Part shown: piece by piece, positions 26,830 to 39,578 of the stretch | Position numbering within the stretch: position 1 is the stretch's first letter | Layout of the letters: each line of letters starts with the position of its first letter | Origin: Mesorhizobium sp. WSM2240 | Lineage (GTDB): Bacteria; Pseudomonadota; Alphaproteobacteria; Rhizobiales; Rhizobiaceae | Direction: 5' to 3' | NCBI RefSeq assembly: GCF_040438645.1 | Contig: NZ_CP159253.1 | Coordinates: 5,446,501 to 5,510,500 of the forward strand | Length of the DNA stretch: 64,000 bases | Notes under the pieces: model-generated | Told to the model about the DNA's origin: nothing | The model's database searches: none | Seen by the model: the letters and a program-made list of their open reading frames with translations, nothing else | Made by a program: the position numbers and the translations under genes

Positions 26830-28758
26830 TTACTTCTGCCGGCGCAGCTGACGCCTCGCCTTAGGCAGTTCGAGCGGGCGGAAGGCGGACGCCTTGTTGC
26901 GCTTCGGCTTCGGCGCGATGAAGGTCTTGACCGGAGCGCGGTCGGGCTTGCCGACGCAATTGCCGCGAACCAGTTTTTCGCCCCTGGCGCAATTCTTGGT
27001 CAGCGTCGGGATGCGGACGCAATTCTTGCCGACGAGCCGAAAACCCTTTTTGCAGAGAATGCTGACTTCCGGCTTCTTGATGCATTTGCCATTGACGCGC
27101 AGTTCGGTGCGCTTGCAGGCCTGCGCGATCGCCGGTTTCTTCACGCACTTCTTGCCGACCAGGTCGAAGCCCGGCTTGCAGAGGATGCTGACGTCCGGCT
27201 TGCCGACGCATCTGCCGCGGATCAGCTTTTCGCCGCGTTCGCATTTCGGTTCCGGCGTCACGACGATCGCGGGGAAGATAGGTTTCGCCGGGTTCGGCCG
27301 CGGGTCGGAGGTAACGTCGTCGACATTCGGGTCGATCGCCGGGTTGTTGCAGGTGAAGTCTTCCTTGTCGACGGCGACCGTCACCGGCGCAGGCCGCAAT
27401 TCCTGCAGCGTGCACTGGATCGAGCGCGTCTTGGTGATCGAGAGGTCATGCGCGCCATAGGCTTCGAACACGCCGCTGCCCTGGTCGTAGCCGGTCGCGG
27501 TTCCGGTGAAGAAGGCGCCGTTGGAGCAGCTTATGCGGTAGTCGAAATCGCCTGGCGCCTGGCGGGTCACCTCGAAAAACACCTGTCCTTTACGCGGGCA
27601 GGATTTGTCATGGCCGGCGCTGTCGGCGACGATCACCTCGCCCTGCCATTGAGCCTGCGGGGGCGGAAACAGCGGATCGTTGTCGTTGGGCACGGTTGTC
27701 AAGCCGCCGCCGCCCGGGCTGGTGCAGTGGACGGTGATATCCTTCCAGCCGTCGAACGGCGCGAAGGGCTCGTTCTCGACGATCTCGGTCTTGAACTGGA
27801 AGTAAGAGGTCGTGCCGACGTCTTCCCAGCTCTCATATGTGGCGAAATAGCCGTTCTTGGCGGCGTCGAAGGATGCCCAGGCCTGCGTGAACTCCGAGGT
27901 GATCGGCCCCCCATTCTTCTGCCGCCAGATGCGCATCGAGACCGGCCCGGCCTGGTTTGCCTGGGCGCGGGAAGTCACCTTCAGCGCAGGGCAGACGGCG
28001 CCCGGATTGGAGCCTTGCTGAAAGTTCTGGTAGGTGGTCAGGAACAGCTTCACGTCTTTGACGTCGAACGCGCCATGATCATGCGCGAGATCATTGGTCG
28101 GCGATTTTATCACGGGATCGCAGACCACATGCACGTCGAACTCGCCATGCGCCGAGTGGGTGGCGTAGGTGACGTCGAATGGCCATTCACCGATATTCGC
28201 CTCGGTGATGACGTTGTTCATATTGAGGATCTTGTCGGTCTCGGCGACGAAGGTGGCGTTGAACTTCTGCGAGAACGAATAGGATTTCGTGGGGCCGTCG
28301 GGCTGGAGATGCTGGTTGCATTTGGCGATGATCTGGTCGCCATAGGGGACGACCGCAATCCCGCCCGCCGACACCGGTATTTTCGACGTGCTGAAGGTGA
28401 AGTTCTGCTGGTGCGAATAGTCGCGGCTGTTCGCCAGATCGCTCCAGATCATCGGGAAGGTCGCGCATTGCTGCGCTCCGCAGACGCCGAGCGCAACCCC
28501 CACTTCGCCGACATAGCCTGGCCATCTGGTGTCGAGCTTCATGTGCCCCCAGAACTGAACGTTGCCGCTTTTCAGCTTGTCCCATTTGTGGCCGTCAGTG
28601 GAGATGACATGGATGGTGGTGTTGACGCTCTCGGTACTGAACGACATCGATTTGACGTTCGCGGGGTCCGAAAGAGCAGGCGTGGCGGAGAGGGCGGCAG
28701 CAGCGGCGAGCGCCAAGGCCGGGACGGTACATTTCATTGATTTCGCAGTTGTAAGCAT
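26830..28758 (-). CDS. Secreted protein with C-terminal C-x10-C repeats, function unknown
   Basis: 642 residues from the ATG at 28758, which follows AGGAGGAACC. A signal peptide (residues 1-30, ending in ATPALS) is followed by two Cys-poor beta-rich regions (~35-350 and ~370-470) that I do not recognise. Residues 506-601 contain five Cys pairs, each C-x10-C, with an exact 21-residue period (506/517, 527/538, 548/559, 569/580, 590/601), e.g. CERGEKLIRGRC and CKKGFRLVGKNC. A basic tail (KARRQLRRQK) ends the protein. The same C-x10-C motif occurs in the next upstream gene. The open frame continues upstream to 31044, but that part is the shadow of the neighbour. Confidence 0.8.
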   Translation of the reverse strand: MLTTAKSMKCTVPALALAAAAALSATPALSDPANVKSMSFSTESVNTTIHVISTDGHKWDKLKSGNVQFWGHMKLDTRWPGYVGEVGVALGVCGAQQCATFPMIWSDLANSRDYSHQQNFTFSTSKIPVSAGGIAVVPYGDQIIAKCNQHLQPDGPTKSYSFSQKFNATFVAETDKILNMNNVITEANIGEWPFDVTYATHSAHGEFDVHVVCDPVIKSPTNDLAHDHGAFDVKDVKLFLTTYQNFQQGSNPGAVCPALKVTSRAQANQAGPVSMRIWRQKNGGPITSEFTQAWASFDAAKNGYFATYESWEDVGTTSYFQFKTEIVENEPFAPFDGWKDITVHCTSPGGGGLTTVPNDNDPLFPPPQAQWQGEVIVADSAGHDKSCPRKGQVFFEVTRQAPGDFDYRISCSNGAFFTGTATGYDQGSGVFEAYGAHDLSITKTRSIQCTLQELRPAPVTVAVDKEDFTCNNPAIDPNVDDVTSDPRPNPAKPIFPAIVVTPEPKCERGEKLIRGRCVGKPDVSILCKPGFDLVGKKCVKKPAIAQACKRTELRVNGKCIKKPEVSILCKKGFRLVGKNCVRIPTLTKNCARGEKLVRGNCVGKPDRAPVKTFIAPKPKRNKASAFRPLELPKARRQLRRQK

Positions 28759-28848
28759 TGGTTCCTCCTGGATGATGTTCATTTCCGGAGGTGTGTCGCC
28801 CGGCCTCGCAAAATGGTTCACGGGCCGGCCCGAGTCATGCGTGGCAAC

Positions 28849-28874
28849 AAAAACCCGCCGGCTGGACCGGCGGG
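28849..28874 (-). terminator. Rho-independent terminator after the DUF11-repeat gene
   Basis: On the minus strand CCCGCCGG, loop TCCAG, CCGGCGGG is followed by TTTTTGTTG: a perfect eight-pair GC stem and T-run, 21 bases after the stop at 28896. It implies that the 26830-28758 gene has reduced read-through or its own promoter within 28759-28848. Confidence 0.85.
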
Positions 28875-28895
28875 GTTCTGGTCGAGGCTTCGCAG

Positions 28896-31800
28896 TTACT
28901 GGACCTGCCTGTTGTTTGACGGCTGCTGCTGCTCGCGTCGGGGCAGTATCCTCCTCAGCGTATCCGGATTGATCTGGATGTTCGGCTGAGTGGGTTGTGT
29001 CACCCTGCGGCAGTTCGGAGGCGTGCCGACCGTGCCGCGCGGGCAGCGGAGCGGCTGGACCTCCACTTTGCGGCAGTTCGGCGGCGTGCCGATCGTGCCA
29101 CGCGGGCAGCGCTGCGGCTGGACGGCCACGCACTGTCCGTTGCGCAGCACCGTGCCTTTCGGACACTCGACCGCGACCTGCCGGCACTGGCCGCGCACCA
29201 GGCGCGTACCACGCGGGCAGATGCAACGCCCGTCTTGCGTCCGGATCTGGCCGGGAAGCAGCGTGCACTGGCGCACCGGCGGCTCGTCCCTGACGCAGCG
29301 GTTGTTGCGCAGCTCGGTACCGCGCGGGCAGATGCATCGACCGTCCTGCGTCCTGATCTGGCCGGGCAGCAGCGTGCACTGGCGCACCGGCGGCTCGTCT
29401 CTGACGCAGCGGTTGTTGCGCAGCTCGGTGCCACGCGGGCAGATGCAGCGCCCGTCCTGCGTCCGGATCTGGCCGGGCAGCAGCGTGCACTGGCGCACCG
29501 GCGGCTCGTCCTTGACGCAGCGGTTGCTGCGCAGCTCGGTTCCGCGCGGGCAGATGCAGCGACCGTCCTGTGTCCGGATCTGGCCGGGCAGGAGGCGGCA
29601 TTGCTCGGTCTGCGGGTCGCGCGGCTTCGGCGTCGGGGTCGGTATCCCGCCCTGGTCGCCTGTGCAGCGGCCGTTGCGGAATGTCGTCCCTTCCGGGCAG
29701 ACGCAGCGGCCCGCATCGTTCATCACGAACCCTTCCGAGCACCGGTCCTTGGGCTGCTCGGGCTTCGAGATCGTGAACAGGTGGCAGGCATACTGCCCTT
29801 CTTCCGGCGAGCCTTCGACGAGCGACTGGCCCTCCGAAAGGCCGCCATTGCGCACTGGCGTGCCGGGGCTGAGCACGGCCACGCAGTTGCGGCCGTTGAT
29901 CGAACCGTTCTGGTTGTCGAAGCGGCCGTCGTCCGGGATCACCACGGTGACCTGGTGGACCCTGGCTTCCCCTGCTCCAAGCGAGAGGTCGGCGACGCAC
30001 GAGATGGGCAGCGTCGTCGGCTCCGGCGCGCAGCCAAAGGGCGGCACGATCTCGGCGATCTCGACGCCTTCGAGACGGCCGAGGCCTTCGACGCCGATAG
30101 CGTCGCCGATCCGCACCGGCCCGTTGAACGCCGTGTCGCTGTCGTTGCGGATGGTGACCTCGAACGTGCAGGGCTCGCCGACGCGGCATTCGCGGTCGCC
30201 GGTCTTCTCGACCCTGATGCTCGATCCGCCCTGATCGCAGGCTTCGCCGATCGGGTAGACGATGTCGTCTCCCGGAGCGGGCCCGTACGAGGCGCGTGCG
30301 CAGTTCTCGAACCGTTCGTTCGGCGAGACATTCACGGTCACGTCGAAATGGCGGCTCGTTCCGGGCGTCATTACCTCGCCCGGGATCTGGCACGACAGCG
30401 TGTCGGCCGGAACCGGTCCGCAGCTCCACTCCGCGCCGTCGGGTGTGACGGTCTGGATCTGGACGGGCGTGCCGGCGCCGATCAGTTCGGCCGCGTCGGT
30501 GACCCGGACCGGACCCGAAGGCGCGGTGGTGCCGAGGCTGGTGACGGTGATGCGGCAAGCATATCCGGCAGCGCCCGCAATCGCCTCGCAGGTCTTGGTT
30601 ACGCGCAGCGTCGGCTTGCCCGGATCGCGGCGGGGGATACGCGCGGTAGCGCAGGCCTTGTTGTTGGCGAGATCGCTCTCGTCGGCAACGGGCAGCACTT
30701 CGGCGCAGTTCTCGAGTAGGTCGGCGGGGAAATCGTCGCCGACGATCGCCTTGACGCCAAGCGGGATGGAAGCGCCCGGAACCAGCACTACGCCCGGATG
30801 GTCGCAGCGGAACCGCCCGGCCACCTCTGGCACGCACGACCATGGCGGCGAGGGCACGAAGTCGGACGAAGCCGGGACGTTTACCGGATATTCGTCGATG
30901 ACGGTGATCGGGCCGTCGATGGTCTCCGTGCCGGTGTTGATGACGTTGATGATGAAGAAGCAGACGCCGTCCGGCGAGCAGACCGGTGTGCGGGCGTGCT
31001 TGGTGATGCCGAGGTCGACCTTCTTCTCCACCGGAGGCCGGCAATCCCGGTCGTTGGGACGGCAGAGCTTGATTGCCGCGCAGGCCCTGTCGTTCGCCTG
31101 CGAGCCGAACAGCTCCTTCCCGCTCGCCGGATAATCATACGCGGCGCAGTTGCGGATGTAGCGCGCGTCCCAACCGGGACCCGGCTTGAAGCCGAGCTTC
31201 AGGTAGATGGATTCGCCCGGATTGAGCGTGGTCGCGGGATGCTCGCAACTCATAGGGCTCACCAGCGGGGCGCAGACCCAGGGCGGGTTAGGGCCGCTGT
31301 CGACCGTCGCGTTGCCGGGCAGGGTGACCTCGTCCAGCACGATCTTGCCGTTATAGGGCGCGTCGCCGACATTGGAGACGGTGATGGTGAAATTGCAGCC
31401 GCCCTCCTCTGTGCAGGTCGCCACGTCCGCGCGCTTTTCGACCTTGATGTCGGGTTCGCCGCGCTCGTCCGGGCAGTCGAGATCGTCGGGGATGACGAGG
31501 TCGACGGTCTGCGTGCAGCAGAGGCCGACGCCTTCTTGCGGTCCGGCATAGGTTTCGATGCCGGTGACGATCAGGTGGACGACATCGCCCGGCAGTGCGC
31601 CGGTGATGGTCCAGGCGAGAACGCCGCCGCCGGCCGGCACGAGCTGCGCCGCCGGCGCAACGGTTACGCCCGGCGTCGTGGTGCGAAGCTGCACCCACTT
31701 GCCGGCCATGTCGGCGCCGACAGGCATGTGGTAGATGAAGGCGCCGCCGCCAGGCACGCAGTCGACATCGCCGGTTTCGACCTCGAAGCAGGCCTCGTCG

Positions 31801-32582
31801 CCGCCCGGGGGTGGTGGCGGAGGCGGCTCGCAATCGGTCACGTCGATGCCGATTTTCGTCGGCTTGCCGGTCAGGAAATCGCCGTCGTCCGGCAATGCCG
31901 GGTCATGCGAAGGGATCTCGATTGCCGCCGCGCCCGGGCGGGCGAGCGTGACGAAACCCTGATTGTCGACCGTGGTCGCCGCCGGGAAGGCGGCGTGGTC
32001 GATTTTTGCCGTAATGATCACATCGAAATAGCGCCGGTCCAGAAGGCCGTCCCCGTCGAGGTCGGCTCCCGACAGGCGGAAATCCTCGATCGTCACCGTG
32101 TCGTCGAGCGAGCCTGTCGTCGAGACGGAAGCCGCCGGGGCGGGTCCGCCCGCGGCGTCCGTGATGTCGCCGTTTATCTCGACATTGACCACCGAAAGCC
32201 CGGCCGGAAGCTGGTCGCGGAAATCCATGCGGATCGCCTTCAGCTGGTTGCTGAACACGTCGCTGTTCAGGACTTCCGGTTCGCCTTCCGCGCCGAAGCG
32301 CAGCCGGTATTTGACGTAGTCGCAGGATATCTGCTTGCCGATCTTCTCGAAGAACGGCTCGACGCGCTCGCGTTCGCGCAGCGGTTCGTCTCTCCTGTCG
32401 AGTTCGAGGAGTGGCGTTTCGGGTTGTGCGGCGGCGGGTGCGATGCCCAGGGAGGCAAACGCTAGCCCGGCCGCCATCAGCCAGCGCGACGCGCGCGCGG
32501 CGATGGTTGCAGGTTTCATGATCGTCTCCGTGACATCGGTTTCGGGGCGCCCCGCAGCGGGAAGATGTGAGAACATGGTCAT
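28896..32582 (-). CDS. Large secreted protein with four DUF11-type repeats and Cys-rich tandem repeats
   Basis: 1228 residues from the ATG at 32582, behind GAGGGAGGGAGAG and 11 bases after the upstream gene's stop. A signal peptide fits better from the in-frame ATG at 32519 (MKPATIAARASRWLMAAGLA, cleavage after AAA), so that start is an alternative. Domains by residue: novel N-terminus to ~250, Pro-rich linker ~253-259, a CC-motif domain ~264-370 that also ends the neighbouring propeller-like protein, four DUF11/Ig-like repeats at ~376-504, 521-646, 657-780 and 788-903, then Cys-rich repeats ~946-1192, including four 37-residue copies of the PGQIRTQDGRCICPRGT type. It looks like a cell-surface or extracellular structural protein; function unknown. 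Confidence 0.8.
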   Translation of the reverse strand: MTMFSHLPAAGRPETDVTETIMKPATIAARASRWLMAAGLAFASLGIAPAAAQPETPLLELDRRDEPLRERERVEPFFEKIGKQISCDYVKYRLRFGAEGEPEVLNSDVFSNQLKAIRMDFRDQLPAGLSVVNVEINGDITDAAGGPAPAASVSTTGSLDDTVTIEDFRLSGADLDGDGLLDRRYFDVIITAKIDHAAFPAATTVDNQGFVTLARPGAAAIEIPSHDPALPDDGDFLTGKPTKIGIDVTDCEPPPPPPPGGDEACFEVETGDVDCVPGGGAFIYHMPVGADMAGKWVQLRTTTPGVTVAPAAQLVPAGGGVLAWTITGALPGDVVHLIVTGIETYAGPQEGVGLCCTQTVDLVIPDDLDCPDERGEPDIKVEKRADVATCTEEGGCNFTITVSNVGDAPYNGKIVLDEVTLPGNATVDSGPNPPWVCAPLVSPMSCEHPATTLNPGESIYLKLGFKPGPGWDARYIRNCAAYDYPASGKELFGSQANDRACAAIKLCRPNDRDCRPPVEKKVDLGITKHARTPVCSPDGVCFFIINVINTGTETIDGPITVIDEYPVNVPASSDFVPSPPWSCVPEVAGRFRCDHPGVVLVPGASIPLGVKAIVGDDFPADLLENCAEVLPVADESDLANNKACATARIPRRDPGKPTLRVTKTCEAIAGAAGYACRITVTSLGTTAPSGPVRVTDAAELIGAGTPVQIQTVTPDGAEWSCGPVPADTLSCQIPGEVMTPGTSRHFDVTVNVSPNERFENCARASYGPAPGDDIVYPIGEACDQGGSSIRVEKTGDRECRVGEPCTFEVTIRNDSDTAFNGPVRIGDAIGVEGLGRLEGVEIAEIVPPFGCAPEPTTLPISCVADLSLGAGEARVHQVTVVIPDDGRFDNQNGSINGRNCVAVLSPGTPVRNGGLSEGQSLVEGSPEEGQYACHLFTISKPEQPKDRCSEGFVMNDAGRCVCPEGTTFRNGRCTGDQGGIPTPTPKPRDPQTEQCRLLPGQIRTQDGRCICPRGTELRSNRCVKDEPPVRQCTLLPGQIRTQDGRCICPRGTELRNNRCVRDEPPVRQCTLLPGQIRTQDGRCICPRGTELRNNRCVRDEPPVRQCTLLPGQIRTQDGRCICPRGTRLVRGQCRQVAVECPKGTVLRNGQCVAVQPQRCPRGTIGTPPNCRKVEVQPLRCPRGTVGTPPNCRRVTQPTQPNIQINPDTLRRILPRREQQQPSNNRQVQ
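29232..29592 (-). repeat. Tandem 111-base repeats inside the DUF11-repeat gene
   Basis: GCGCACCGGCGGCTCGT recurs at 29271, 29382 and 29493, exactly 111 bases apart, within near-identical units encoding 37 residues with the CICPRGTELR core. Three full units and a fourth with diverged edges are present. Confidence 0.9.
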
Positions 32583-32593
32583 CTCTCCCTCCC

Positions 32594-34567
32594 TCACGGT
32601 TCGCAGCTTGCGGGTGGCGTTTCGAGCGTCACCGTGACTTTGCAGCACGGGTAGTAGCCGCCCCGTTCGGAATCGGCTTCCTTGTAGAAGCAGAGCCCGA
32701 CATCGACATTCTCGCCGGGGAAGTGCCCGGTGATGCCCAATGTGAACGGAGCGCCTGCAGGCTGGGTCTGCTGCAGGGGCGAAACGCCGATCCCCGGTGT
32801 CCTGGAGTCGGCCTTGATCGTGTCGCCGCCGATGCCGGCGACGTCACGCACGTAGAGATCGGCCTCGAGCCCGGCCGGCGTGCAGAAATACTCGACGGCA
32901 TCGAGATCGATGCAGGGTGGGATGTTCTCGCCCGGAGGCGGGAAGATCGGCGGCCAGATAGGCGGCAGGTAGCCGCCGCCCGGAACCGGCTCGTAATAGC
33001 CCGCGCGCCCTTCGCAGGGCCGCCAGACTTCCACGTCGCCGACATGGCCCTCGACTTCCGGGTCCTCGAAGAAGCCATCGAAATCGACGAACCAGCTGCC
33101 GAAAGGCGGCTCGTTCTTCGGTCGGACCAGCGGCGTCGGCGTGATCTGCACCCCGTGCACCGCAGTTGGCCCGCCGGCGATGAGCTGCTCTTCGAGCGCC
33201 GGATTGTCGCGCAGCTTGTCGCCGGTCTTCACCAGCGTGTCGGCGCAGGCATTGCTGTTCAGATTGCCCTGCGCGTCATAGCCATATTGCAGGTCGATGC
33301 CGCCCGCGCTCTGGCGGTGGCCTTCGGGAAAGCCGACGGCATATTCCTCCGGCGCTTCCACCCAGAGCGATTCCGTCGCCGGATCGTCGGGGCTCTCGCG
33401 CCAGTAGCGCAGCACGACGCCATCGCCGGAATCGGCGAAGCGGCTGTAGTCGTAGCGGTTGTCGATCTCGCCCCGCTGGGCGAGATACATGAAGCCGCGC
33501 GTATCGAAAGCGATGTCGGTTACGGGCAGTTCTTCGGGTGCGGCGACCGTCAGCTCCCAGCGCGGATCGCCGGCGAAAGTCCCGTCGCGGGCGATGCCGA
33601 CGGACCAGATTTCCGCCTTCTCGCCGACCGCGTAGTAGAGCCGGCGGCCATGCACCTGGACGCCCCAGACACGCCGTTCGTCCTGCGTGAAGCCCCACGT
33701 GTCGGGATCCTCGCTGTCGAAGGCGGCGCCCTCTATGTCCATCACCGCGCCGTCGTCCGCGACCGGCTCGAGGCCGCGCGCCGGCCGCCCGGCAACGCCA
33801 TGATCGAAGATGTCGATCAGGACGCCGTCGGCGCCGATGCGGTGGATCAGCCCGGTGTCGAGGTCGGAGGCGAAGAACTGCCGGTGCGCCTTGTCAAAGG
33901 CGATATTGCCGATGCCCGGCCCGCTATTGCCGTCGATATCGGCGAACAGCGAGACCTGTCCGGTCAGCCCGTCGATCTTCCAGAGCGTGCCGGGACCGCC
34001 GCCATTCTCCTCGGCGAACTGGCCCTCCATGAAGGTCGCGCCTGCGGCGCCGCGGCGCTGGCGTTCCGGCCTGCCGTCATCGTCCTCGTCGGGCGTGACG
34101 ATGCGGACGCCGTGCAGCGAGCTTGCGGCCGCGTAGAGGTTCGGCACGTCGCTCGGAATGCCGTCGCGGACGCCGTCATCATAGGCGAGGCCGAACACCT
34201 GGCCGATCTGCCCGGCCATCACCTCGAAGGGCTGCGGCGTATAGACGAGCTGGCCGGTCGGCGGGCCGCCGAGCGCATTGACGTCGAAAACGCGCAAGGT
34301 CGCGCGATCGAGGTCGATGAAGGTTTCGTCGACCGGGTCGACGCCGGGCGGCAGCCCCTCGTCGAAATTGGGAATGATGGTGCCGGAGAACCCTGTCACC
34401 GCCATCGATCCGGGATAAATGATCTGCGTTTCCTGCGCCCTGCCGGGGCCGGCGAACCATAGCCCGGCGGTCAGCGCCAGCGCGACGATCGCGCTCGTCG
34501 AGGCAAGAGCGCTGCGGCGGCGATGGGGAAGGGCGTGCAGGATTGATGTTCCGCGGACATGCGGCAT
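32594..34567 (-). CDS. Secreted beta-propeller-like protein with C-terminal CC-motif domain
   Basis: 657 residues from the ATG at 34567 (GGAGAAG seven bases upstream), starting MPHVRGTSILHALPHRRR with a signal peptide to ~43 (ending GRAQ). Residues ~45-480 show repeated strand motifs with aromatic/Gly-Asp turns (GIGNIAFDKAHRQFFASDLD, VTDIAFDTRGFMYLAQRGE), as in NHL/SMP30-type propellers. A Pro-rich stretch (PPIWPPIFPPPGENIPP) leads to a last ~95-residue domain with CID, TPG, PAG, GxFPGENVDVGLC and YYPCCKV. That domain matches the one at ~264-370 of the next gene. It is first in a three-gene run. An 88-residue upstream extension of the frame looks non-coding. Function unknown. Confidence 0.8.
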   Translation of the reverse strand: MPHVRGTSILHALPHRRRSALASTSAIVALALTAGLWFAGPGRAQETQIIYPGSMAVTGFSGTIIPNFDEGLPPGVDPVDETFIDLDRATLRVFDVNALGGPPTGQLVYTPQPFEVMAGQIGQVFGLAYDDGVRDGIPSDVPNLYAAASSLHGVRIVTPDEDDDGRPERQRRGAAGATFMEGQFAEENGGGPGTLWKIDGLTGQVSLFADIDGNSGPGIGNIAFDKAHRQFFASDLDTGLIHRIGADGVLIDIFDHGVAGRPARGLEPVADDGAVMDIEGAAFDSEDPDTWGFTQDERRVWGVQVHGRRLYYAVGEKAEIWSVGIARDGTFAGDPRWELTVAAPEELPVTDIAFDTRGFMYLAQRGEIDNRYDYSRFADSGDGVVLRYWRESPDDPATESLWVEAPEEYAVGFPEGHRQSAGGIDLQYGYDAQGNLNSNACADTLVKTGDKLRDNPALEEQLIAGGPTAVHGVQITPTPLVRPKNEPPFGSWFVDFDGFFEDPEVEGHVGDVEVWRPCEGRAGYYEPVPGGGYLPPIWPPIFPPPGENIPPCIDLDAVEYFCTPAGLEADLYVRDVAGIGGDTIKADSRTPGIGVSPLQQTQPAGAPFTLGITGHFPGENVDVGLCFYKEADSERGGYYPCCKVTVTLETPPASCEP

Positions 34568-36947: not shown

Positions 36948-37508
36948 ATGACGAACGATACCGATCGTGACCTGGTCGGCCGCGTCGCCAAGGGCGATCG
37001 CGCCGCCGTGCGGCTTCTGTTCATGCGCCACCACGCGCGGGTCTACCGCTTCGTGGCGCGCCAGACGGGATCGGAAGCGATGGCGGACGACATAGCCAAC
37101 GAAGTTTTTCTGGAGCTGTGGCGGCAGGCGCCGCGCTTCGAAGGTCGGTCGGAAGTCTCGACCTGGCTGCTCGGCATTGCCCGCTTCAAGGCGCTGTCGC
37201 ATCTGCGCAAGAAAAGCGAGGCGTGGATCGACGATGACGACGCCGCGGCCGTGGCGGATACCGCCGACACGCCGGAAGTGACGGTGCTGAAGGAGAACAA
37301 GGCGGCTGCGCTGCGGCGTATGGTCGACGCGCTGCCCGAGGAGCATCGCACCGTGGTCGACCTCGCCTACTATCACGGCAAATCGGTCGCCGAGATCGGC
37401 GAGATCCTTTCGATACCTGTGGCGACGGTGAAGACCCGGATGTTCTATGCCCGCAAGAAGCTCGGCGAGGCGTTGAAGGCCTCCGGGCACGACAGGGGTT
37501 GGCCATGA
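36948..37508 (+). CDS. ECF RNA polymerase sigma factor
   Basis: 186 residues. Region 2 is at ~20-90 (LLFMRHHARVYRFVARQTG, VFLELWRQAPRFEGRSEVSTWLL) and region 4 at ~130-180 (LPEEHRTVVDLAYYHGKSVAEIGE followed by SIPVATVKTRMFYARKKL). It is a stand-alone ECF sigma factor lacking extra C-terminal domains. Its TGA overlaps the ATG of the anti-sigma gene (ATGA), so the two are translationally coupled. Target promoters are unknown; autoregulation is usual. Confidence 0.94.
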   Translation: MTNDTDRDLVGRVAKGDRAAVRLLFMRHHARVYRFVARQTGSEAMADDIANEVFLELWRQAPRFEGRSEVSTWLLGIARFKALSHLRKKSEAWIDDDDAAAVADTADTPEVTVLKENKAAALRRMVDALPEEHRTVVDLAYYHGKSVAEIGEILSIPVATVKTRMFYARKKLGEALKASGHDRGWP

Positions 37509-38173
37509 GCGCCGGAGAGAACATGTCGCGCCGCGACGAATTGGAAGCGCTGCTGCCCTTCTACCTGAACGGCACGCTGGAAGGCGACGACCTCGAAGCC
37601 GTCGAGGAATGGTTGGCCTCCGACCCGGAGGCAGCGGTGGCGCTCGCCGAGGCCGACGCTGAATTCGCCGGCGCGGTCGCCGCCAACGAGGCGCTGCGGC
37701 CGCCGCCCGATGCGCTCAGCCGCTTTTCGAAGGCGCTGGAGGCGGAAGCCAGGCCTGCGAGGGCAGAGGCCGGAACATCCTGGCTCGCCGGCCTGTGGGA
37801 ACGGATTGCTGGCCTGCCGGCGGGGCTCGCCTGGGCGACGGCTGCCGCTGCGGTCATGCTGCTTGTCGTGCAGGCGGCGCTCGACAAAGGCAGGCAGGGC
37901 GGCGATTTCGAGATTGCGGGCGAGGAAAGCGGCGTCGGCTCGATGCCATTCGCCTTCGTCAAGTTCAGGCCGGAAGCGGAGATGGCAGACATCTCGGCCT
38001 TCCTGGTGGAAAACGGCGCGGCCATCGCCGGCGGGCCGACCGCGGGCGGCGTGTTCCGCATCGCCATCCCCGCCGAGACCGCCGCCGACTACGAGAGGCT
38101 GGTCGGCCTTATTGCCGCCCAGCCCTTTGCCGAAACTGTTTCCGAAGGCAGGAAACCGGCCAATGGCGGGTAA
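37505..38173 (+). CDS. Membrane-bound anti-sigma factor
   Basis: 222 residues from the ATG at 37505, overlapping the sigma gene by four bases. Residues 1-100 are a cytosolic anti-sigma domain of RskA/zf-HC2 type without the Zn His/Cys set (RRDELEALLPFYLNGTLEGDDLEAVEEWLA). One membrane helix is at ~104-125 (PAGLAWATAAAAVMLLVV). A ~65-residue periplasmic domain at ~148-212 (FAFVKFRPEAEMADISAFLV, AAIAGGPTAGGVFRIAIP) follows. It should hold the sigma factor at the membrane until a periplasmic signal releases it. The downstream subtilase gene starts inside it. Confidence 0.87.
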   Translation: MSAGENMSRRDELEALLPFYLNGTLEGDDLEAVEEWLASDPEAAVALAEADAEFAGAVAANEALRPPPDALSRFSKALEAEARPARAEAGTSWLAGLWERIAGLPAGLAWATAAAAVMLLVVQAALDKGRQGGDFEIAGEESGVGSMPFAFVKFRPEAEMADISAFLVENGAAIAGGPTAGGVFRIAIPAETAADYERLVGLIAAQPFAETVSEGRKPANGG

Positions 38174-39578
38174 GGCATTCAGGATTGCGGCGTTTTCAGC
38201 GGCCATGCTTGCGGGCGTGGCTCCGGCCTTGGCTCAGACCAACGATCCGTCCGGCGCGCTGCCGACAGATCGGCTGACGGCCCGGCCTGAAGGCGCCAGT
38301 CCGGCAAACGGTGCGGCGGAGGATGCGGTGCTGCTGCCGGACCTTCTGTTCGACCTGTTTCCCAATCCGGCCGGCGGCGAACCGCCCCAGCCGGATGACG
38401 GCGGACAGACGCCGCCCGCGACCTCGCAAACGGGAGGACCGCCGCCCGTGCCGGCGCAAAATCCGCTTGGCCCCGCCGCTGCCGCCGCGGCGCGTCGGCC
38501 GCTCGCAGCACCGGCGCGGGCGATCGCCGGCGAATTTGTGCCCGATGAGGTGCTGGTGACGATCGAGGGCGACGGCGCGGTGGTCCTGCAACTCGCCGCC
38601 GAGTTCGGGCTGGAAGTCCGCTCGCAGCGGCTTTCGGCGCTGCTCGGCCTGACGATCGTGCGCTTCGGCATTCCCGATGGCCGGCCGGTCGGCGTCGTGC
38701 TGGCCCAGCTCGCCGCCGACGGCCGCGCGCAAAGCCGCGCGCCCAACCATGTCTACGATCTGCAGCAGGCGCCGGCCGTGATCAACTACGCCTTCCAGCG
38801 CATCGCGCTCGATTCGGCTGCGGCCAGCGGCAAGGATGTGCGCATCGCCGTCATCGACACGGCGGTGGACGAGACGCATCCCGCCCTGGAAGGTGTCGTT
38901 GCCGAGATTTTCGACGCCATGCCGGAGGTCGAGATCACGTCGCGCGACCATGGCACTTCCGTTGCCGGGCTGATCGCCGGCACAGGGCCGTTTCGCGGCA
39001 TGGCGCCGGGGTCGAGCATCTATCATGCCCGCGCCTTCGAGGACGGCAAGTCGACCATGGACACGATCCTGAGCGCTCTCGACTGGGCGGCGGGCAAGGA
39101 TGTGCGCATCATCAATATGAGCTTTGTCGGGCCGCGCAACGAGCTGCTGGAGACCGCATGCCGCAATGCGCGGGCGCGAGACATGGTGCTGGTGGCGGCG
39201 GCCGGCAATAACGGCCCGAAGGCGCCGTTCGGCTACCCCGCCGCCTATCCCGGCGTCACCGCCGTGACCGCGACCGACGAGCAGGATCAGCTGATGCAGC
39301 AGGCCAATCGCGGCGCTTACGTCTATCTGTCGGCGCCCGGCGTCGACATGATCGCGCCGGTCGGCGGCGGCTCCGATCTTGTCACCGGCACATCGTTTGC
39401 CGCGGCGATCGTCTCGGGAGCGGTGGCCAACCTGATCCGCAGCAATCCCCAGCGCTCGGCCGAGTGGATCGAGAAGGCGCTGGCCGAGACCGCCACCGAC
39501 CTCGGCAGCGCCGGCCGTGACGGCGATTTCGGCTACGGCCTGCTCAACGCAAAGGCGGCGGATGCGGAGAAGGAATAG
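38163..39578 (+). CDS. Secreted subtilisin-like serine protease (S8 family)
   Basis: 471 residues from the ATG at 38163, overlapping the anti-sigma gene by 11 bases. A signal peptide to ~24 (MLAGVAPALAQ) is followed by a Pro/Gly-rich linker (~65-115), an I9-like propeptide region (~120-200, FVPDEVLVTIEGDGAVVLQL) and the protease domain. The catalytic triad is Asp232 (VIDTAVDETHP), His263 (RDHGTSVAGL) and Ser411 (VTGTSFAAAI), with the oxyanion Asn at about 349 (AAAGNNGP). All catalytic residues are present. The operon suggests it is made under control of the sigma factor and acts in the periplasm or outside the cell. Confidence 0.93.
   Translation: MAGKAFRIAAFSAAMLAGVAPALAQTNDPSGALPTDRLTARPEGASPANGAAEDAVLLPDLLFDLFPNPAGGEPPQPDDGGQTPPATSQTGGPPPVPAQNPLGPAAAAAARRPLAAPARAIAGEFVPDEVLVTIEGDGAVVLQLAAEFGLEVRSQRLSALLGLTIVRFGIPDGRPVGVVLAQLAADGRAQSRAPNHVYDLQQAPAVINYAFQRIALDSAAASGKDVRIAVIDTAVDETHPALEGVVAEIFDAMPEVEITSRDHGTSVAGLIAGTGPFRGMAPGSSIYHARAFEDGKSTMDTILSALDWAAGKDVRIINMSFVGPRNELLETACRNARARDMVLVAAAGNNGPKAPFGYPAAYPGVTAVTATDEQDQLMQQANRGAYVYLSAPGVDMIAPVGGGSDLVTGTSFAAAIVSGAVANLIRSNPQRSAEWIEKALAETATDLGSAGRDGDFGYGLLNAKAADAEKE

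Follow-up and report, generated by a model that had tools for sequence, protein, structure and literature searches.

Three consecutive minus-strand genes of Mesorhizobium sp. WSM2240 raise the question of which of their products belong together, and as what. They lie in a window of 64,000 nt (NZ_CP159253.1, 5,446,501-5,510,500), the whole stretch of DNA analysed, within which all positions below are counted. The original prediction described a cassette of three secreted proteins of 657, 1228 and 642 residues, each with a signal peptide and none recognisable as enzyme or transporter. The open reading frames (ORFs) were confirmed at their places: g1 (32594..34567, minus strand, 657 aa), g2 (28896..32582, minus strand, 1228 aa, or 1207 aa from an alternative start Met at 32519) and g3 (26830..28758, minus strand, 642 aa). 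All three N-termini, read directly from the sequence, look like Sec signal peptides, with the usual hydrophobic segment followed by small residues. No enzyme or transporter family was found in g1-g3 above the curated Pfam and NCBIfam cut-offs, the sole enzyme row being MYG1_exonuc in g3 (E 0.18, below cut-off), and these claims thus held. We favour the reading, with a probability of roughly 0.55, that a fibrillar-adhesin-like envelope protein is made here in two halves, g1 and g2, while more distant relatives make it as one polypeptide. In this reading, g1 would be the head, g2 the stalk, and g3 an accessory secreted protein sometimes present downstream.

A conserved gene pair

g2 was found directly downstream of g1 in all 80 pair loci, which are the best 80 of 331 g1 relatives from a scan of genome contigs (Mesorhizobium, Aminobacter, Nitratireductor and some metagenome-assembled genomes). 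In the window only 11 bp separate the g1 stop from the g2 start, with a purine-rich, ribosome-binding-like stretch between them, and g1 is present as a single copy in its genome. Among 297 genomes of the window's family, 40 had a g1 match, and in 25 of these the match spanned a cysteine-rich domain at the end of g1, here called CC; the N-terminal half of g2 was matched in exactly the same 25 genomes. Thirteen of the other 15 carry propeller-DUF11 fusions, and two could not be assigned. A class sample gave g1 matches in 7 of 289 genomes (own genome included), four strong ones outside the order and two weak ones near E 3e-4. A phylum sample gave 11 of 249 (own genome included), nine of them in the same order and three of the 11 at just E 2e-4 to 7e-4. 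Even where matches are common they are not universal, as in one genus of the family (g90) with a g1 match in 5 of 7 sampled genomes. In Mesorhizobium, Aminobacter and Nitratireductor the pair is widespread without being universal.

Domains of the putative stalk and head

Pfam matches above cut-off were obtained for g2 only, to DUF7929 and DUF11, with none in g1 or g3, and NCBIfam gave no match above cut-off in any of the three. DUF7929 (g2 residues 76-249; 31836..32357, minus strand) matched PF25551 with 282 bits against a gathering cut-off of 27 (E 1.6e-84). In PMC12617251 both families are isopeptide-type adhesin or pilin domains: DUF7929 is CnaA-like with a predicted Lys86-Asp129-Asn213 triad, and a crystallised DUF11 domain, renamed CLIPPER, has Lys715-Asp748-Asn806. 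The g2 triad K80-D123-N207 has the same spacing as that DUF7929 example and occurs in 81 of 81 aligned sequences, in which K80 and N207 are the sole fully invariant Lys and Asn of this CnaA-like predicted isopeptide domain. Four DUF11 (CLIPPER-type) repeats occupy residues 375-915 (29838..31460, minus strand), and candidate triads were chosen in them by pattern and spacing. In K383/D417/N478 the Lys and Asn are present in 81/81 sequences and the Asp in 77 (Glu in 3); K528/D563/N625 is complete in 81/81; K663/D696/N760 is found in 75, 75 and 76 of 81, with five sequences gapped there; and K793/D827/N899 in 81, 81 and 80 of 81. With its Pfam matches and predicted CnaA-like fold g2 falls among DUF11/CLIPPER proteins, and by sequence its DUF7929 and four DUF11 domains make an elongated stalk of tandem Ig-like domains. 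This stalk also has conserved cysteines and ends in Cys-loop repeats, and at each of its Lys-Asp(Glu)-Asn triads an isopeptide bond within the chain is expected to arise spontaneously.

The g2 tail (residues 951-1228; 28899..29732, minus strand) has C-x10-C repeats, EB-module-like below the Pfam cut-off, and a Pro/Gln-rich C-terminus. A loose 'INP.LL'-like motif was seen at the g2 C-termini (28899-28990), the NP-x-L type occurring in 65/81 sequences against 18/81 shuffled ones and 10/120 fused proteins. Beyond this loose 'NP..L' motif, which we could match to no named signal, no uniform C-terminal sorting signal was seen.

The g1 protein consists of its signal-peptide-like N-terminus, a predicted β-propeller (residues ~48-520; 33008..34426, minus strand; pLDDT mostly >90), a Pro-rich linker and the CC domain. 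The closest solved folds to the g1 model by VIA-align were the six-bladed propellers of nidogen, LRP6 and LDLR, and the model itself has a six-bladed β-propeller fold. Propellers are a common type of ligand-binding platform, and as the head g1 would present such a platform. Identity to these YWTD/NHL-type propellers is ~11%, and this likeness does not point to a shared ligand or function. The likeness seen to hydrolytic propellers (SMP-30/DFPase, phytase) is one of fold and weak sequence similarity. When solved structures were searched by sequence, the g1 alignment matched chiefly peptidoglycan-binding chains, in columns contributed by its fused members, besides weak DFPase rows; the g2 and g3 alignments had no match at E 1.

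The original prediction held that the end of g1 recurs within g2, and a profile comparison bore this out. The g1 CC domain (residues ~549-657; 32597..32923, minus strand) has six Cys, each of them kept in 120 or all 121 of the aligned g1 sequences, and the g2 CC domain (residues 256-375; 31458..31817, minus strand) has five within it and a sixth (C251) just ahead, all in 81/81. In a search of the own genome g1 residues 537-651 matched g2 with 30% identity (E 6.5e-5), and the two CC profiles matched with 97.1% probability (E 1.5e-10, 108 columns). In the same comparison of eleven domain alignments, DUF11 repeats matched each other at 78-99.7%, and all other pairs stayed below 3%. The idea that CC is a degenerate DUF11 was rejected, profile similarity being absent. 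By median identity to the 80 loci, CC is the best conserved of the g2 parts compared (72.8%, against 63.7% for the DUF11 block, 52.2% for DUF7929 and 42.6% for the tail, present in 79), and in g1 the order is reversed, with CC at 61.9% and the propeller at 79.2%. We propose that g1 and g2, both exported by Sec, would then meet through their homologous CC domains, so that a non-covalent or disulfide docking would substitute for the peptide link of the fused form. The joint is possibly an inter-chain disulfide; the g2 CC holds an odd five cysteines inside.

Split and fused forms

More distant relatives have DUF11 domains behind the propeller within one ORF. Among the 120 such proteins listed out of 380 matches, from Rhodobiaceae, Roseibium, Kaustia, Hyphomicrobium and others, all 120 match the propeller and DUF11 queries and 71 match the Cys-loop tail as well. 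PG_binding_1 is present in 13 of the 120, C-terminal to DUF11 in all three scanned proteins that carry both, and NCBI labels several of these relatives 'peptidoglycan-binding protein'. They differ from the pair in being one polypeptide with no CC. The triad recurs in them: in 418 DUF11-like stretches aligned to repeat 2, Lys was found in 338/341 and Asn in 274/291 ungapped stretches and Asp or Glu in 406/418, the full triad being present in 233/418; most of the others have a gap at a single position. The repeat-4 model gave no usable reading here (Asn column gapped in 190/200 stretches), and the repeat-2 model was used. In some fused relatives long tandem His/Pro/Arg-rich repeats (e.g. HRPRGS) replace the Cys loops and look like a fibrous or metal-binding tail, examples being the C-terminal parts of L027:8722-11496, L029:2122-5562, L030:5557-10137 and L032:11881-14099.

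The CC domain was found in split forms only. Over all loci gathered, 89 propeller ORFs carry CC, and all 89 have a CC- or DUF7929-bearing gene downstream (86 when duplicate contigs are excluded). None of the 22 propeller ORFs with DUF11 and without CC has such a neighbour, and neither does any of the four in which neither CC nor DUF11 was recognised. DUF7929 or DUF11 is present in each of the 88 CC-bearing ORFs that lack a propeller. A tree was built from 107 propellers selected among those gathered; in it 22 of 23 split forms fell, among fused forms, into one clade (support 1.0) with a single fused member, L165 (genome G160). This member combines in one chain a g1-like propeller (53% identity to g1 over 421 residues), a DUF11 repeat like the fourth of g2, and a g2-like tail; no CC or DUF7929 was found in it. 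As the tree has no outgroup and one split form, L166, is placed outside the main split clade, fission is the direction of change that we infer. Tentatively, and with rather less confidence than we give the two-halves reading itself, an ancestral single-chain propeller-stalk protein may have come apart in an ancestor that Mesorhizobium shares with its kin, the CC pair re-joining an exchangeable head to a covalently locked stalk.

Alternative readings and wider meaning

That g1, g2 and g3 make one three-component system is highly improbable, and an obligate one was refuted, leaving g3 an accessory role. Among 49 pair-bearing genomes searched (from 50 of the 80 loci) g3 was found in six, adjoining g2 in all six. 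It is missing from the other 43, and also from M. camelthorni (G001), of the window's genus, whose g1 is 95% identical. The four strong g3 matches among the genomes of the window's family (E <1e-200, own genome included) all come from pair genomes; in three of them g3 adjoins g2, and in the fourth it adjoins a fragment of g2. Close g3 relatives therefore accompany g2, yet the pair does not need g3. In the family, g3 matches occur in 11 of 297 genomes, six of them without a g1 match (one of the six a fragment with stops). In M. alhagi (G002) no g3 was found within 2.8 kb after g2; there g3 is on another contig, where a piece of the g2 tail (last DUF11 repeat and Cys loops; L148:2679-3278) stands just before it, a partial duplication or an assembly effect. 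The N-terminal ~340 residues of g3 belong to a well conserved family with 112 relatives at E 1e-3, in which certain Cys and Trp are invariant; it matched neither a Pfam entry above cut-off nor, at E 1, any solved structure. By profile comparison of parts outside the repeat tails, g3 has no domain in common with g1 or g2. The C-x10-C repeats attributed to g2 and g3 do exceed shuffled expectation in both (ten in g2, eight of them in the tail, against a mean of 1.66 and a maximum of 8 in 1000 shuffles; five in g3 against 0.47 and 3), but at E 1e-3 the g2 tail does not find g3 in the own genome and in relatives gives weak matches (best E 5e-7), and the likeness is therefore mainly one of repeat pattern. 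Shared ancestry of the two tails was not retained on these results. The predicted assembly of propeller-like reader, DUF11 scaffold and Cys-loop modules is partly borne out, g3 not being an obligate member. A terminator-like hairpin (28854..28874, minus strand; 9 pairs, 8 GC, TTTTTGTT tail) also separates g2 from g3, 21 bases past the g2 stop in the 137-bp gap before g3, which folds more strongly than shuffles (z -3.6). Terminator-like sites across the whole region are at shuffle level (4 against 4.2), and the case for this hairpin thus rests on its placement and on the recurrence of similar hairpins after g2, in 24/79 loci against 15/1600 random, mostly coding windows of the same loci.

Two other readings concern the pair itself. 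It is unlikely, if far from negligible, that g1 and g2 form a periplasmic, peptidoglycan-associated envelope module, such as a spacer or sensor that lies between the cell wall and the outer membrane, with the propeller acting like periplasmic TolB and the isopeptide-type stalk giving mechanical stability inside the periplasm. This alternative draws weight from the fact that no outer-membrane route or anchor was recognised: Pfam gave neither an outer-membrane anchor nor a secretion domain in the pair, a protein with only a Sec signal could stay periplasmic, and the PG-binding domain of some fused relatives would fit. The pair in the window, however, has no PG-binding domain in Pfam at E 1, and exposed stalks are where CnaA-like and DUF11 domains are typically found (PMC12617251). 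We think it quite improbable that the g1 propeller is secreted as an enzyme (lactonase, esterase or phytase-like) for which g2 serves as carrier or wall scaffold; an enzymatic propeller is conceivable, but g1 has no Pfam or NCBIfam family at E 1 and its best fold matches by Z are binding propellers. Several further points weigh against g1 and g2 being a split adhesin-like protein. In the G064 split form (L166), placed outside the main split clade, the CC scores are weak (38 and 61 bits). The triads of g2 are residues and not observed bonds, the DUF11 ones being picked as described. The g2 structure model, which spans DUF7929, CC and two DUF11, has a pTM of 0.37, and in Foldseek integrin chains tie with 9IFR at rmsd >11. 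For g1, Foldseek places seven-bladed nitrous oxide reductases and others above nidogen (rank 20), in long, poorly superposed rows of TM-score to the query <=0.32 with other propellers on top. Finally, two of the 25 pair genomes of the family, G049 and G073, each carry a separate fused propeller-DUF11 protein (L162, L163) besides the split pair, and the two forms are thus not strict alternatives per genome.

Relatives of rpe flank 65 of the 80 loci, those of malonyl-CoA synthase 54 and those of dnaJ 39, and in those loci the pair therefore stands mostly amid chromosomal housekeeping genes. In the window it is flanked on one side by genes of ABC-transporter, mannitol-dehydrogenase and SDR type, and across from these lie genes for a LysE transporter and an AraC regulator; a promoter scan of the region found nothing. 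At 36948-39578 an ECF sigma factor gene is followed by a short ORF (37499-38173), anti-sigma-like solely from where it lies; the same stretch holds a Peptidase_S8 (subtilase) gene with relatives in 4 of the 80 loci.

No description of the g1-g2 pair was found in the open-licence PMC literature. Accounts of isopeptide-stalk adhesins, PMC12617251 among them, present single chains or pilins. In the main text of PMC12617251 the words 'propeller', 'split', 'heterodimer' and 'operon' do not occur; PMC9210967, a survey of Firmicutes and Actinobacteria, treats DUF11 as a stalk domain, its main text making no mention of propellers. A match in PMC3420878 is to DUF1109 and has no bearing on the pair. Like the DUF11/CLIPPER fibrillar adhesins known from the crystal structure 9IFR and from PMC12617251, the pair has a signal-peptide-like start, a tandem isopeptide-type Ig-like stalk with K-D-N triads and a candidate head. 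Unlike them it has head and stalk on separate chains, each with a CC domain, a predicted propeller as the head and no recognised anchor. Since head and stalk are encoded by two genes and form a single chain just in relatives, we call the pair adhesin-like and do not class it as a typical fibrillar adhesin. If the favoured reading is true, a head and a stalk made as two polypeptides, with a docking-module candidate present only in the split form, would be a construction new for this kind of protein in Gram-negatives, and would offer a test set by nature of how a domain pair replaces a covalent link. If the protein was also split and re-joined as proposed, CC would be a new docking module pair. 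For a protein pair widespread in Mesorhizobium, Aminobacter and Nitratireductor, the reading would supply a testable role.

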